In this document: piece by piece, positions 48,242-57,953 of the stretch
Numbering within the stretch: position 1 is the stretch's first letter
Layout of the letters: each line of letters opens with the position of its first letter
Assembly (NCBI GenBank): GCA_937922925.1
Contig: CALAKU010000024.1
Span: 17,296 to 81,295 of the forward strand
Source: an uncultured Arenicella sp.
Lineage (GTDB): Bacteria; Pseudomonadota; Gammaproteobacteria; Arenicellales; Arenicellaceae
Direction of reading: 5' to 3'
DNA: 64,000 bases
Translations under genes and position numbers: made by a program
The notes under the pieces: generated by a model
Told to the model about the DNA's origin: nothing
Database searches by the model: none
What the model saw: the letters and a program-made list of their open reading frames with translations, nothing else

Positions 48242-48970
48242 ATGCCTATCATGACTCAGATACGGCGGGTTGCATTAAGTTTTGGCTTAATGACATTGGC
48301 CGCCTGCACAACTTTAGAAACAAACACCGACGAGTTGCAATCGCCGAGTGTTCAAGAGCAATTAGATGACCTTGGCGAGCGCCTGAGTTCGTTGAGCGAT
48401 GGTCTGGATTCGCAATACCAATCAATTTGCAAAGAGCAAAATGCCGAACTTGAATCTGAGTTAAAAAAGAACGAGTCACGCATCAGCAAGTTACGTAAAG
48501 AAAATTCCAGTTTGGAAAAAAGTTGCGCTGAGAAAACGCCATTGTTGTTCGGCAATCAGATTGTGGTTGGTGAAATCGAAAATATTACCTTGGTTGAAGA
48601 GGGTTTTAGTAGTTCTGCCCGGATCGACACAGGTGCCGAGACTTCGTCTTTAGGCGTCTACGATTTACGAGCATTTGAACGCGATGGCAAACAGTGGGTT
48701 CGATTCAAGTTAGAGAACAAAAAGTCGGCCGCAAGTTTCGAGTATCGTGTGCGTGGTAGAGCCAGAATTAAACAGAGCGCCATTAGTGAAGGCGATGAGC
48801 GATACGAGATTCGATTGTCGATTCGACTGGGCGATAAAACCTATGCGCGCCAAATATTTAATCTCTCGGATCGCAGTTTTCTTGAACATCAAATTCTAAT
48901 TGGCCGCAGCTTTTTGACCGACGTGGCGGTTGTTGATACTGCTTCCCGATATCGTTTGGGGCGCAAATAA
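48242..48970 (+). CDS. RimK-associated retropepsin-like 'ATP-dependent zinc protease' family lipoprotein
   Basis: Lipobox-like LMTLAACTT; SSARIDTGAETSSLGVYDLRAFERDGKQWVRFKL; LIGRSFLTDVAVVD. Confidence 0.87.
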   Translation: MPIMTQIRRVALSFGLMTLAACTTLETNTDELQSPSVQEQLDDLGERLSSLSDGLDSQYQSICKEQNAELESELKKNESRISKLRKENSSLEKSCAEKTPLLFGNQIVVGEIENITLVEEGFSSSARIDTGAETSSLGVYDLRAFERDGKQWVRFKLENKKSAASFEYRVRGRARIKQSAISEGDERYEIRLSIRLGDKTYARQIFNLSDRSFLEHQILIGRSFLTDVAVVDTASRYRLGRK

Positions 48971-48971
48971 A

Positions 48972-50465
48972 ATGAACTCTCGTTTGCCCTTCTTCTTTTT
49001 GTTATTTGTACTGATAGCCGTTGGCCTTGGCAGCATCTACTATCGATATGCGCAAACCGGAGTGCCGTTAACGCCGGGCCAACGAATAGATGTTTGGCAG
49101 GTTGAGGCGCAAATTGAATTTCAAGGCTTGGGGGAGCCGGTCACGGTTACCCTGAATTTACCGGGCGACTCACAATTTGAACTCTTAGAAGAATTCACCG
49201 CATCACCTGCATATGGCGTCAATATAGCGCGCGATGAACAACAGTCTAAGGTGGTTTGGAGTAAGCGCGAGGTAACTGGGCCGCAAACGCTTTACTACAA
49301 AGGCTCGTATAAGGAGGCGTTGAATCCGACCAGTGACATTGCCCCAGCTTTGGTTAACAACGCGACTCCGACTTTATTGATAGAGCCTTATGCCAGCAGC
49401 GCCAAGGCTGTATTAGCCCAGGCGACAAGCCAATCCGGCAACCAAGAAACTTTGGTTGAGCAAGTTGTGCAATTGATTAATTCAGACAATCAAAATGTCG
49501 CAATGCTGCTCTCACGCTATTCTCGTACTCGCACGTTTACGTTATTGATGGAGCAAGCCAATATTCCCGTTAAGTCAGTGCGTGGCTTGCAACTTGAAGA
49601 CGAGCGTCGTAATCAATCGTTGATCCCGATGGTCAAAGTATATGCCGACAAGGAATGGCGTTTATTAAACTTGAGTCGCGTCGTGCTCGACGAAGAAAAT
49701 CCGCTAATGATTTGGCTTGAGGAACAGCCATTTTTACTTGATGTCGTGGGCGGCGAAGACTCATCGATTCGTTTTGCTATTAGCAAATTCAGAACCAGCG
49801 CCGTGAGCGAGGCCAACAAAGTAGCTCGGCAAAACGCTTGGGGCTTTGGGCTCTATAGTTTGCCAATAGCCGAGCAGAATTTATTTCGCAGCATTTTATT
49901 GTTACCCATTGGTGCCTTGGTGGTCGTATTTTTACGTATTTTGGTTGGAGTACGATGCAGCGGAACGTTTATGCCCATTCTGATTGCTACGGCGTTTATT
50001 CAAACTGAATTACTGAATGGCTTACTAGGGTTCACTTTAGTTGTGGCCGCAGGTTTGGTTATTCGTTCTTATCTGTCCCATCTTAATCTACTGATGGTCT
50101 CGCGTATTTCTGCGGTGGTGATAGTCGTGATCGGCATTATTATTGCCTTTACGGTTTTTGCTTTTCGGATGGGTTTAACCGAAGCTCTAACGATTACGTT
50201 TTTCCCGATGGTCATTATGGCGTGGACTATCGAACGGATGTCGATTCTGTGGGAAGAAGAAGGTGCGCGTGAGGTCTTGGTGCAAGGTATGGGCAGCTTG
50301 TTTATAGCGATCGTCGCTTATCTATTGATGGACAACCAACTTGTGCGTCATTGGGCGTTTAATTTTCTTGGTGTTCATGTCTTGATTATGGCTGCGATCT
50401 TGATGATGGGGCAATACACCGGGTATCGCTTGCTTGAACTTCGCCGCTTTAAGCCTTTAGCTTAA
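48972..50465 (+). CDS. Inactive transglutaminase-like protein fused to seven TM helices
   Basis: Start chosen at MNSRLPFFF; N-terminal TM, periplasmic region, then RCSGTFMPILIATAFIQTELLNGLLGF and multiple TM helices; gene order matches known cluster. Confidence 0.82.
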   Translation: MNSRLPFFFLLFVLIAVGLGSIYYRYAQTGVPLTPGQRIDVWQVEAQIEFQGLGEPVTVTLNLPGDSQFELLEEFTASPAYGVNIARDEQQSKVVWSKREVTGPQTLYYKGSYKEALNPTSDIAPALVNNATPTLLIEPYASSAKAVLAQATSQSGNQETLVEQVVQLINSDNQNVAMLLSRYSRTRTFTLLMEQANIPVKSVRGLQLEDERRNQSLIPMVKVYADKEWRLLNLSRVVLDEENPLMIWLEEQPFLLDVVGGEDSSIRFAISKFRTSAVSEANKVARQNAWGFGLYSLPIAEQNLFRSILLLPIGALVVVFLRILVGVRCSGTFMPILIATAFIQTELLNGLLGFTLVVAAGLVIRSYLSHLNLLMVSRISAVVIVVIGIIIAFTVFAFRMGLTEALTITFFPMVIMAWTIERMSILWEEEGAREVLVQGMGSLFIAIVAYLLMDNQLVRHWAFNFLGVHVLIMAAILMMGQYTGYRLLELRRFKPLA

Positions 50466-50467
50466 AT

Positions 50468-50515
50468 AAGCCCTTAGCCTAGAAACTTACATCAAGCCCT
50501 TAGCCTAGAAACTTA
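50468..50515. repeat. 22-bp perfect direct repeat (period 26) between the 7TM and ATP-grasp genes
   Basis: aagcccttagcctagaaactta at 50468-50489 and 50494-50515; degenerate copy aagcctttagctta overlaps the upstream stop codon. Confidence 0.97.
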
Positions 50516-50525
50516 TAAGCCACTA

Positions 50526-51491
50526 ATGTTAAAGCGCCTCTCTAACAAGCTTGCCAATCCTCGAGTACTAAGAGCGCGCGGCGTTATGGGCATGAATCAG
50601 CGTAACTTGTCGTACATTGCGCGCTACAATGATCGGCGTCTTTACCCCAATGTCGATAACAAACTGCGTACCAAGGAAATTGCCTTAGAAGAGGGCATCT
50701 CGGTGCCAGATCTATTGGGCCAAGTTGTCTATCAACATGATGTTGAGGCGGTGTTCGATTTGCTGCCAGAGAGTGGCCGCTTTTGTATCAAGCCAGCCAG
50801 CGGCAGCGGCGGTAAAGGCATCTTGGTGGTAGTAGATAAATCTCAAGACGGCTTCAAAAAAGCGTCTGGTGCCTATGTTCAAGAGCGAGACATTGTGCGC
50901 CACGTATCGAACATTCTTGCTGGCTTATTCAGTCTTGGTGGCGACGCCGATGTGGCGATGGTCGAGTCCTTGATCGAATTCGACCCAGTCTTCAACGGTT
51001 ATAGCCACGAAGGTGTGCCAGATATTCGGATCATCGTCTTTAAAGGTTATCCAGTGATGGCTATGTTGCGTTTAGCAACTCACGCTAGCGATGGTAAAGC
51101 CAACCTGCATCAAGGAGCTGTGGGCGTGGGTTTGGATATCTGCTCTGGTAAAGCCGTGGCCGCAGTGCAGTTTAATCAACCCATTCACTCGCATCCAGAT
51201 ACGGGTAGAGACTTAAGCCAAATCGCCATCGAAAACTGGCCCTCGTTAATGCATTTAGCGGCGCGTTGTTATGAGGTTTCCGGGCTTGGTTACTTGGGTG
51301 TAGATCTAGTATTGGACAAACAACGAGGCCCGCTGGTTTTGGAACTTAACGCGCGTCCCGGTTTGGCAATACAGATCGCGAATCAGCACGGCATGTTGCC
51401 AAGGCTCAAGCAAATAGAGGCCTTGCAATTGCGTCGCCCTCCCCTTGTCGATCAGCGCATCGAATGGGTTTTAGAGCAGTGGTCTAGCTAG
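50526..51491 (+). CDS. RimK-type alpha-L-glutamate ligase-like ATP-grasp protein
   Basis: GMNQRNLSYIARYNDRRLYPNVDNKLRTKEIALEEGISVP; FCIKPASGSGGKGILVV; LVLELNARPGLAIQIAN. Confidence 0.92.
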   Translation: MLKRLSNKLANPRVLRARGVMGMNQRNLSYIARYNDRRLYPNVDNKLRTKEIALEEGISVPDLLGQVVYQHDVEAVFDLLPESGRFCIKPASGSGGKGILVVVDKSQDGFKKASGAYVQERDIVRHVSNILAGLFSLGGDADVAMVESLIEFDPVFNGYSHEGVPDIRIIVFKGYPVMAMLRLATHASDGKANLHQGAVGVGLDICSGKAVAAVQFNQPIHSHPDTGRDLSQIAIENWPSLMHLAARCYEVSGLGYLGVDLVLDKQRGPLVLELNARPGLAIQIANQHGMLPRLKQIEALQLRRPPLVDQRIEWVLEQWSS

Positions 51492-54528: not shown

Positions 54529-56616
54529 ATGGCAACGATCAAATCGGTAGATGGCACAGCCAAGCAACGAGTTCAGGCTAAGTTACGAATGATTCGTAAC
54601 GGCGGCAGTATCGTTAATTCGGTGCGTGCAAGCCGATGCGCCTCGGTAGCGCAACGCCAACAGAGCTTTAATAGTCAGCAAGGTTCTAAGTCAGAAAGCG
54701 GGGCTTTATCAAAATCGGCATCCGGTGAAACGACTTGGGAATCGGTCGATGCGGGAGCCAACGACATCATCGTTGACGTTTTCATTGAGCTGCAAGACGA
54801 GTTTGTCGATTTGTACCAGAGTCTTTGCTTGCCCAACCCAAACGAGTTGCAAGACGATGCGCGATCCAACCTTGAGTTAAACATAACTCAAGCCGCGGGC
54901 CGCTATCTCACCGCCGAAGTGTCACTCTCTATGCTAGATATGTTGCAGCAGTGTTCGCAAGTTGTATCTATCGAGCTTGGGCAAGAGATCAAAGTGGCTC
55001 CGCCAATCCTAGCGCAGCAAGTCGATTTGAGCGCCCGCCCGCCCTCGCGCCGAATTAAAGATCGATTCAAGCATGATAAAGGTGCCAATGTTCTGATCGG
55101 CATTATTGATATTGGTGGTTTTGATTTCGCGCATCCAGACTTTCTTGATAACGAGGGCGAAACTCGGTTTATTGAAATATGGGATCAAGCAGGAGAAACG
55201 CGCAAGCCTCCAGCGCCCTATAGTTATGGCGCTTTGATTGAGCAAAAGCACATGAGCCGGGCTATTCAAGCCAGCGCAAGTGTGGGCGGCCTGCCAGCGT
55301 ATGAGTTAGAACCGCAAAGTTTGCAGATGCGCGCATCGCATGCAACTCATGTGACGAGTATTGCCGCCGGTGCCAAAGGTATCTGTCCGAAAGCTTTACT
55401 CGCAGGTGTCTCCTTGGCGTTGCCAAGCGATCACAATGACCGGCGCTTGTCGCTGTATGACTCAACCCGTCTGGCACACGCGGTGGATTATTTGTTCGAC
55501 CTAGGCAAGCGCTTGGACAAACCCGTGGTGATCAATATCAGCCTTGGCACAAATGGGCATGCTCATGATGGCACGAGTATTGTGAATCGATGGCTTGAGC
55601 GTGCTTTGGATGTGCCGGGTCGAGCGATCTGTGTGGCGGCCGGTAACGCAGGTCAAGAAGCCCCCACTGGCCCAGACGATTTAGGCTTTATGCTAGGCCG
55701 AATTCACTCTAGTGGACGCATTAGCGCCAGCGGCTTGAGCAGCGACCTAGAATGGGTTGTGGTTGGCGATGGCAGTGGGGATCTATCTGAGAATGAATTA
55801 GAAATTTGGTATGGGCCACAAGACCGCATTGCGATTGAGATTCGGCCGCCAGACAGTTCTAAGTGGATTGGGCCGATCGAACCTGGCGAGTTTCTTGAAA
55901 ATAAATGGTTAAAAAATACCGGGTTTCTAAGTATCTACAATAATCTTTATGCGCCTTCAAATGGTGACAATCACATTGCGATTTTTTTAAGCCCCTTTAT
56001 GAGTGAGACCGCCCCTATTGGTATTAAACGGGGTAAATGGACAGTCCGCTTGCACGGTCGAGATGTACGCGATGGGCGCTTTAATGCCTGGATCGAGCGT
56101 GATGATCCGCGCCGAGTGCGCCGAGCCAAGACTGAATCAGCATGGGCCTACCCCTCGTTTTTCTCGCGCCGAACGGCCGTTGATAATTCAACCGTGAACT
56201 CCTTGGCGGCCGGTCATAAAATCATCTCGGTAGCCAACTATGATGAAGATAAAGAATCCATACACATTACCAGCAGCCAAGGCCCAACCCGAGATGGACG
56301 CAGTAAGCCAGAAATCGCTGCGCCGGGCGCCGAGATATTAGCTGCAAACGGCTTTGCCTCACGGGACAAACCATGGGTAAAGATGACGGGCACCAGCATG
56401 GCTTCGCCCTATGTGACTGGTGTCGTCGCGCTAATGTTAAGCGCCGACCGTCAACTCACGGCGGCGCAAATCTCTGGCATTCTCAAGCGCAACGCCAAAC
56501 CCTTACCAAGCACCAACTACAACTGGCAAAACGATGCTGGTTTCGGTGTGGTGGACGCCGCGAGCAGTGTTCGCGAAGCTTCCGACATTCATACTCTTAA
56601 GGACAAAACAGGATGA
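54529..56616 (+). CDS. S8 family (subtilisin-like) serine peptidase
   Basis: IGIIDIGGFDFAHPDF (Asp), RASHATHVTSIAAG (His), MTGTSMASPYVTGVVALML (Ser). Confidence 0.93.
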   Translation: MATIKSVDGTAKQRVQAKLRMIRNGGSIVNSVRASRCASVAQRQQSFNSQQGSKSESGALSKSASGETTWESVDAGANDIIVDVFIELQDEFVDLYQSLCLPNPNELQDDARSNLELNITQAAGRYLTAEVSLSMLDMLQQCSQVVSIELGQEIKVAPPILAQQVDLSARPPSRRIKDRFKHDKGANVLIGIIDIGGFDFAHPDFLDNEGETRFIEIWDQAGETRKPPAPYSYGALIEQKHMSRAIQASASVGGLPAYELEPQSLQMRASHATHVTSIAAGAKGICPKALLAGVSLALPSDHNDRRLSLYDSTRLAHAVDYLFDLGKRLDKPVVINISLGTNGHAHDGTSIVNRWLERALDVPGRAICVAAGNAGQEAPTGPDDLGFMLGRIHSSGRISASGLSSDLEWVVVGDGSGDLSENELEIWYGPQDRIAIEIRPPDSSKWIGPIEPGEFLENKWLKNTGFLSIYNNLYAPSNGDNHIAIFLSPFMSETAPIGIKRGKWTVRLHGRDVRDGRFNAWIERDDPRRVRRAKTESAWAYPSFFSRRTAVDNSTVNSLAAGHKIISVANYDEDKESIHITSSQGPTRDGRSKPEIAAPGAEILAANGFASRDKPWVKMTGTSMASPYVTGVVALMLSADRQLTAAQISGILKRNAKPLPSTNYNWQNDAGFGVVDAASSVREASDIHTLKDKTG

Positions 56617-57908
56617 AAATAGAAGCATTCCACGTAAAAGATGGCGACTGCCTGCTCCTCAGTACCGACACCTCCAATGTATTGGTTGATGGTGGGCGAG
56701 GCACAGCGTTTAAAGATCATGTCATGCCGCGACTGGCGCAGTTAGAGCAACAGCAATTGGATATCGATCTGCATGTCATATCGCACATTGATGATGATCA
56801 TATCTCCGGCGCACTCGAACTCATCGAATCCCAAATTGCATGGAAAGCATTTGATTTCCAAAGCCAGGATTCAGACTTTATCGGCCCAAGCCCCAAATTA
56901 GCGCGCACACCTGAGATAAAACAAATTTGGCACAATGGTTTTAACGAACTCATCAACGACGACTCAGGTAAGGTTGAAGGTGCGTTAAATTCAGCAACCC
57001 GAACTCTTGGGCTCAATAGCACCTACAATAATTTGTTTGAGTTGTACGAGAATCTAACCAACGGTGTACGCAGCACCATCGAATACAATTACCGTTTGGA
57101 TTTATGCGGTTTCGGTGATCGGCTCAACATTCCCTCCGCGCGCAGCGACAAGCTAATCGTGTTAGCCAATGACACCAGCCCCATCGTAGTAGGGGACATC
57201 AGTATTCGCATCTTGGGGCCAACGGTTGCGATGTTGAACGAGCTGCGAGACTACTGGAATGATTGGCTAGAAAATCACAATTTAGATGTGCCAGCGCTGC
57301 GCCGCGAAGCCGAGCAAGATGCTCAGGATTCCGGTATCAGCCTCGAACAAGCGACCTTAAATTTGTTGTTAAAAGAGGCCAGCAGTTTGGGCGAAGGCGA
57401 AGATGGCATCAGTGAACCCAATTTGGCATCTTTGACAATGCTGCTCGAACATCAAGGTAAGACTGTATTGTTGACTGGCGATGCAGGTAGTCGCGAGTTA
57501 TTAGATGGCCTCGCGCAACACGGTATGTTGGATAGTGGTGCGCTGCATGTGGATGTTTTAAAGGTGCAACATCACGGTGCAGCCGCCAATGTGACCAAGG
57601 AGTTTTGCGAGAAAGTCACTGCCACACATTACATTTTTTGCGGTAACGGTGCTCACACAAATCCCGAGAAAGTTGCGGTCGACGGCCTCATTGAGCATCA
57701 CCTCGCAATGGTACCCGGCGATGCGCCAATGCATCTCTGGTTTACTACACATAGCACAACCAAAGGCATCACCAAAAAGCAAAAAGAATACTTAGAATCC
57801 CTCGAGCAACATCTTGATCAGAGGTGGGCTAACCAAGCAGCGCGCATCGTTCGGCATTATCCTCAAGATGATGGTGTTAGTTTAAGCGTAAAAATTGATT
57901 TAAGTTAG
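56613..57908 (+). CDS. ComEC/Rec2-like MBL-fold metallo-hydrolase
   Basis: VISHIDDDHISGALELI, VLLTGDAGSRELL, VQHHGAAANVTKEF; ATGA overlap with S8 peptidase stop. Confidence 0.88.
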   Translation: MKIEAFHVKDGDCLLLSTDTSNVLVDGGRGTAFKDHVMPRLAQLEQQQLDIDLHVISHIDDDHISGALELIESQIAWKAFDFQSQDSDFIGPSPKLARTPEIKQIWHNGFNELINDDSGKVEGALNSATRTLGLNSTYNNLFELYENLTNGVRSTIEYNYRLDLCGFGDRLNIPSARSDKLIVLANDTSPIVVGDISIRILGPTVAMLNELRDYWNDWLENHNLDVPALRREAEQDAQDSGISLEQATLNLLLKEASSLGEGEDGISEPNLASLTMLLEHQGKTVLLTGDAGSRELLDGLAQHGMLDSGALHVDVLKVQHHGAAANVTKEFCEKVTATHYIFCGNGAHTNPEKVAVDGLIEHHLAMVPGDAPMHLWFTTHSTTKGITKKQKEYLESLEQHLDQRWANQAARIVRHYPQDDGVSLSVKIDLS

Positions 57909-57924
57909 CAATCAAAGACAGGCT

Positions 57925-57953
57925 AAAAGAGCCGCGACTAGAACGGCTCTTTT
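57925..57953. terminator. Bidirectional intrinsic terminator between MBL gene and ahpF
   Basis: aaaagagccg (57925-57934)/cggctctttt (57944-57953). Confidence 0.88.

Follow-up and report, generated by a model that had tools for sequence, protein, structure and literature searches.

In the window, i.e., the 64,000-nucleotide stretch of an uncultured Arenicella sp. genome that was analysed, a gene for a subtilase (S8) and a gene for a ComEC-like MBL hydrolase form a pair that is real, widespread and previously unnamed in the open-access literature, where we found no described S8-MBL pair. We consider it probable, at roughly two chances in three, that the pair is a mobile two-gene zymogen module in which a latent cytoplasmic Csp-type subtilase releases a DNase by cutting its partner's gates, and the DNase stops an invader. 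Under this reading, a third protease class, in at least eight phyla, would join trypsin-like proteases and caspases as activators of gated nucleases. Its novelty is limited by the study of Tuck et al. 2025 (PMC12799240), which already mentions a further radiation of nucleases with "other diverse" protease families; its text names no subtilisins.

Organization of the S8-MBL locus

Both genes lie on the forward strand, as do all features of the two proteins given below. The S8 gene (54529-56616) is an intact open reading frame encoding 695 amino acids and the MBL gene (56613-57908), also intact, encodes 431 amino acids. These coordinates, and the 4-bp ATGA stop/start overlap at 56613-56616 by which the two genes are translationally coupled, agree with the earlier note on this DNA. 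Pfam searches with the pair returned Peptidase_S8 (E 4e-26) and Lactamase_B (E 8e-10). The bidirectional terminator that had been reported was confirmed directly in the sequence at 57925-57953, where it separates the MBL gene from convergent ahpF. It is a hairpin with a perfect 10-bp inverted repeat (AAAAGAGCCG at 57925-57934 and CGGCTCTTTT at 57944-57953) and T tracts on both strands, and it was absent from the terminator scan because its 9-nt loop exceeds the maximum of 8 nt allowed there. No hydrophobic export segment was found on the S8 or the MBL protein. The best 15-residue mean hydropathy within the first 60 residues of the S8 protein was 0.62, which upholds the previous view of a protease without a signal peptide. 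The G+C contents of the two genes, 0.52 and 0.48, are close to that of the flanks (about 0.48). Elsewhere in the window, at 48930-51491, a 511-aa membrane protein is followed by an ATP-grasp protein (PF14397, E 1e-91).

Pairing and spread of the two genes

Relatives were sought in 84,980 species genomes with no query but the MBL alignment, and the best 80 of the 178 relatives found were kept. The query was a 3-row alignment; a single-sequence scan of genome contigs yielded no relatives. Among the best 50 of the 178, here called type 1, a homologous S8 gene lies directly upstream of the MBL gene in 50/50, with a spacing of -4 nt in 26, of -7 to +31 nt in 49 and of 208 nt in one. Because these relatives were found by the MBL sequence alone, the pairing is far beyond chance, and the linkage that the earlier note had seen at one locus is universal in the 50 best homologues. 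The distances between the S8 proteins also correlate with those between the MBL proteins (Mantel r 0.75, 0/5000 permutations). Among 109 genomes of the window's order, the full-length type 1 S8 and MBL genes occur in the same 3 and in no other.

In the MBL tree, type 1 is a single clade (support 99) in which eight phyla are intermixed: Bacteroidota, Actinomycetota, Planctomycetota, Chloroflexota, Pseudomonadota, Acidobacteriota, Myxococcota and Gemmatimonadota. Some of these labels come from MAGs that are possibly misbinned, and isolates from four phyla are included. The pair was also found on rhizobial plasmids, mostly conjugative ones larger than 150 kb; at some plasmid loci, genes for a Shedu-domain protein (L106), TIR-domain proteins (L105) or a caspase (L108) lie nearby. 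Inheritance is thus not purely vertical, and the pair is distributed as a mobile accessory module would be. Phage records gave only two weak matches; among the viral contigs, the search recovered a single AVAST locus and a single Csp-like S8 that is unpaired, both described below.

Carriage on conjugative plasmids would also suit an addiction or competition module of a plasmid or genomic island, in which the S8 protein activates the nuclease not upon phage infection but when the element is lost or a rival one enters; a two-component lethal-zymogen design would fit such a role. We regard this as quite unlikely, considering that most type 1 members are chromosomal or lie on unassigned MAG contigs and that no labile antitoxin-like partner is evident.

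The setting of the window pair is a housekeeping one. Its immediate neighbours are an alpha/beta hydrolase gene and ahpF, and oxyR-ahpC-ahpF and ferrochelatase genes flank it. The peroxide-defence genes among them, together with the mostly metabolic neighbours of the homologues, speak for a non-immune stress or housekeeping unit, in which a cytoplasmic protease and a DNA-processing hydrolase would be fixed beside oxyR-ahpC-ahpF and serve in envelope, oxidative or DNA-damage stress. However, none of the 17 other same-genus genomes searched carries the pair, and oxyR-ahpC-ahpF is kept without it at six same-genus loci inspected, of which one shows only ahpF on its contig stretch. A unit of that kind is also hard to reconcile with its rarity (3/109 genomes of the order) and with a plasmid-borne, phylum-hopping pair, and we judge it very improbable.

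A PADLOC search of the 114 genes flanking non-redundant type 1 pairs gave stray matches only (a raw count), namely, pVip-like, IetA, Csa3 and PDC-S04. No Pfam family recurred among these 114 genes, which are mostly metabolic, and all-against-all BLAST revealed no conserved third gene for type 1, save a patatin gene at one locus (L025). Such neighbourhoods are compatible with defence as well as with roles in addiction, plasmid competition or stress. The earlier note had proposed a cytoplasmic protease that activates a nuclease-type MBL enzyme in the style of conflict systems and had looked to defence islands for a check. The proposal is strengthened by homology to gated pro-nucleases, universal linkage, coevolution and mobility; enrichment in defence islands was not visible around type 1 pairs.

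The MBL protein as a predicted gated pro-nuclease

In PADLOC, the MBL protein matched LmuA (5.6e-47), Avs1a (5.7e-30) and the RT-associated MBL, RTasMBL (5.9e-30). Its best NCBIfam match was Avs1a (E 7.6e-38), at 130 bits against an equivalog cut-off of 420. When 45 type 1 MBLs were compared by hhalign with four gated MBLs from AVAST, Canu-like and other contexts, the alignment covered 322 columns with a probability of 100 and an E of 1.4e-44. The relationship to the gated pro-nucleases Avs1a, LmuA-MBL and CanC extends over the whole protein. The metal site is intact. In the HIDDDH motif (residues 58-63; 56784-56801), H58 is conserved in 51/51 family members and D60, D62 and H63 in 50/51, and the metal ligand Asp290 of LLTGD (57480-57482) is conserved in 51/51.

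Compared with ComEC of the same genome, the MBL protein is longer by about 90 residues between HxDxDH and the core strand that follows it, and by about 57 ahead of the PNLAS/GD motif. The first insertion, Gate 1, spans residues ~80-190 (56850-57182) and holds a shared IWHN motif at 105-108. Gate 2 spans residues ~206-267 (57228-57413), where the window MBL has about 60 aa and ComEC about 7. Both insertions are located at the same places as those of an Avs1a protein (L104) and of a Canu-like/CanC-like MBL (L013). The AF2 model has a pLDDT of 87, with the lowest confidence within the two insertions, at 172-178 in Gate 1 (pLDDT below 50, a disordered stretch) and at ~240-267 in Gate 2 (58-63 in the blocks covering 251-270). 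Outside these low-confidence stretches, the model predicts helix for much of both insertions. We predict that the MBL protein is a pro-enzyme, the two gate loops of which would cover its active site.

According to Tuck et al. 2025 (PMC12799240), the Hachiman DNase is activated when a protease cuts such insertions, and gate cutting in AVAST is supported by cut-site mutants and immunoblotting. In the L104 protein, the Ile closest to the known Avs1a cut site falls opposite window residues 148-150 in the alignment, and a cut site around residues 147-151, within Gate 1, can be proposed for the window MBL; the position is approximate. Type 1 MBLs have a moderately conserved A-x-S at 149-151, where the window MBL has T-N-G. 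The cut-site Ile is not conserved in the type 1 MBL family, so the specificity of the S8 protease must differ.

A Foldseek search with the MBL model revealed the phosphorylcholine esterase Pce as the top solved structure and ComEC as the fourth, so that DNA as the substrate rests on the closer sequence homology. Since MBL folds have many substrates, the pair might be a conflict module in which the MBL protein acts on another phosphodiester (RNA, a nucleotide second messenger or a phospholipid head group), and the subtilase, as a separate effector with the MBL protein as its regulator, degrades host or phage proteins. The match to Pce fits this alternative, as does a related clade in which the MBL gene and a different S8 gene are paired with a patatin-like phospholipase gene, which leaves room for membrane targeting among the wider family. 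We nevertheless think it unlikely, because the MBL protein is nearest by sequence to gated DNases and ComEC and has retained two insertions exactly at the known gate positions.

The S8 protein as a candidate latent activator

The S8 protein matched PF00082 (E 3.9e-26). Its catalytic D194 and H271, oxyanion N373 and S623 are kept in 50-51 of the 51 family members, and the catalytic Ser623 of GTSMASP (56395-56397) is conserved in 51/51. The AF2 model (pLDDT 81, pTM 0.86) has a prodomain-like alpha/beta domain at residues ~79-151 (54763-54981), also indicated by Foldseek and composed of E80-88, E117-123, E126-132, H135-140 and E145-150. Inside the protease domain, residues ~400-545 (55726-56163) were modelled as a jelly-roll-like beta insertion with successive strands from E404 to E540. 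The closest solved proteins, by sequence (E 1e-21) as well as by fold, are the Clostridium Csp germination proteases, which were the best Foldseek matches (E 1e-32 to 1e-35). Foldseek aligned the S8 model with Csp structures and pro-subtilisins over about 600 columns, exceeding the catalytic domain.

The jelly-roll insertion is a hallmark of Csp proteases (PMC3567191). In CspB, the prodomain remains bound until a signal arrives and shields an active site that is itself competent, and efficient cleavage of the zymogen pro-SleC requires the catalytic activity of CspB (PMC3567191). By analogy, the modelled architecture suggests that the window S8 is a latent activator protease. It had previously been left as an "effector or activator"; activator is the better reading.

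The family also has an N-terminal conserved motif at residues ~9-34 (54553-54630) with the consensus KLxPKLRMxANGSxxVNxxRA, a candidate docking or sensing element. N30 and R33 are invariant and L19, R20, N24 and V29 nearly so in the 41-row alignment A4, and a loose pattern of the motif is present in 36/51 S8 proteins. In two genomes a second, divergent Csp-like S8 lies near the S8-MBL pair (L154:7777-9273 and L065:11778-14039), and the second Csp-like S8 of genome G024 has an in-frame TAA inside the matched stretch.

Related gated MBLs and their partners

A second clade, type 2, comprises about 30 loci (L073-L103 without L075) in which a related gated MBL is paired with a different S8 protein, whose N-terminus is longer than that of type 1. 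A patatin-like phospholipase gene was found near 16/30 type 2 pairs, mostly directly adjacent, and one adjoins a single type 1 pair (L025). Clusters of patatin, different S8 and gated MBL genes occur, for example, at L082:6811-11326 and L079:6636-11287, and also at L021 and L025. Such a cluster resembles a three-gene conflict system whose effectors might act on membranes and DNA.

In a sibling species of the window's genus (G017), L013:2233-5772 encodes a caspase-domain protein, a 413-aa protein with no Pfam match and a gated MBL, a Canu-like arrangement. Taken with the type 2 pairs and this locus, the gated nuclease family is thus coupled to trypsin-like proteases, caspases and at least two kinds of subtilase. 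An AVAST type 1 pair was found on an IMG/VR viral contig (L104:6031-12966), with an Avs1a-type MBL (PADLOC 1.8e-84) and a 1911-aa partner with trypsin-like and NACHT/STAND domains. At L018 and L019 (genomes G065 and G039), a single reading frame of 1120 codons encodes a gated-type MBL fused behind an N-terminal region of at least ~330 residues; such a one-chain layout is unusual. On a prophage-like IMG/VR contig (L150:4317-6960), an unpaired Csp-like subtilase gene follows an amidase-like gene and directly precedes a weakly SIR2-like gene, a hint that subtilases of the Csp type may work with other effectors.

Proposed mechanism

In the zymogen module that we favour, the MBL protein would be made as a ComEC-like pro-DNase with its active site covered by the two inserted gates, and the prodomain of the co-translated cytoplasmic subtilase would most likely keep it inactive. 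The cue that releases the subtilase would most plausibly be phage infection or some other intracellular insult. The subtilase would then cut the gates of the partner MBL and set off DNA degradation. This would kill or arrest the cell, and the invader would be stopped. Gate cutting by the subtilase would parallel that by the trypsin-like proteases or caspases of Hachiman, AVAST and Canu.

Unlike in the trypsin systems, no fused or adjacent sensor is evident at the S8-MBL pair. The compact two-gene format drops the fused sensor, and what trips the protease thereby becomes testable; the Csp proteases suggest release of a retained prodomain. A bolder proposal, which we put forward tentatively and hold to be somewhat doubtful, is that infection is sensed by the Csp-type subtilase itself, by means of its N-terminal motif and retained prodomain lock, and that the subtilase directly unleashes the gated DNase. 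The pair would then be the minimal known two-gene proteolytic immune switch, and spore germination and bacterial immunity would share a protease architecture for zymogen activation.

Comparison with described systems

The window pair shares several traits with known gated pairs: intact metal ligands, two insertions at the gate positions with low-confidence stretches, and an adjacent coevolving protease (50/50 linkage, Mantel r 0.75). The known proteases are trypsin-like or caspases, whereas that of the window is S8 by Pfam and by fold. The sequence homology of the MBL protein to gated MBL pro-nucleases spans about 320 columns. As described by Tuck et al. (PMC12799240), HamM/HamA, Avs1a/Avs1b, Lamassu and DRT likewise have a ComEC-like MBL, two active-site-proximal insertions and a partner protease. 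In those systems, however, a defence protein carries the protease as a fused trypsin-like domain, whereas in the window the partner is a free-standing upstream S8 protein, and no STAND, helicase, SMC or RT gene lies beside the pair.

The MBL of AVAST type 1 (Avs1a-Avs1b) is homologous to that of the window, as the PADLOC (5.7e-30) and NCBIfam (130 bits) matches indicate. Membership was rejected on the score of 130 against the cut-off of 420 bits and on the lack of a neighbouring trypsin-STAND Avs1b in the window. Judged by sequence, the window MBL is kin of Avs1a and not an AVAST member. Lamassu was rejected because no LmuB SMC protein adjoins the pair, whose neighbours are the alpha/beta hydrolase and ahpF, and Hachiman on missing partners and scores. 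In Canu (CanABC), a caspase complex turns on the nuclease, according to the same study (PMC12799240). Like the window pair, Canu has its protease encoded by a free-standing gene that lies upstream of that for the gated nuclease, but in the window a Csp-type subtilase takes the place of the caspase and there is no CanB-like third gene. Because the upstream gene is S8 rather than caspase CanA and CanB, membership in Canu was also rejected.

IetAS is another antiphage system with a subtilase, but the S8-MBL pair contains no IetA ATPase, and the IetS profile matched only type 2 S8 proteins and not that of the window. The Csp germination proteases (CspB, CspBA and CspC) share the prodomain, the jelly-roll insertion and the catalytic triad with the window S8. 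The latter scored 134 bits against a cut-off of 1250 for CspBA and 115 against 675 for CspC, and it is not assigned to either family. It differs from the Csp proteases in the additional N-terminal motif of its family, in not belonging to a spore-former and in having a predicted pro-nuclease, not a cortex hydrolase, as its partner.
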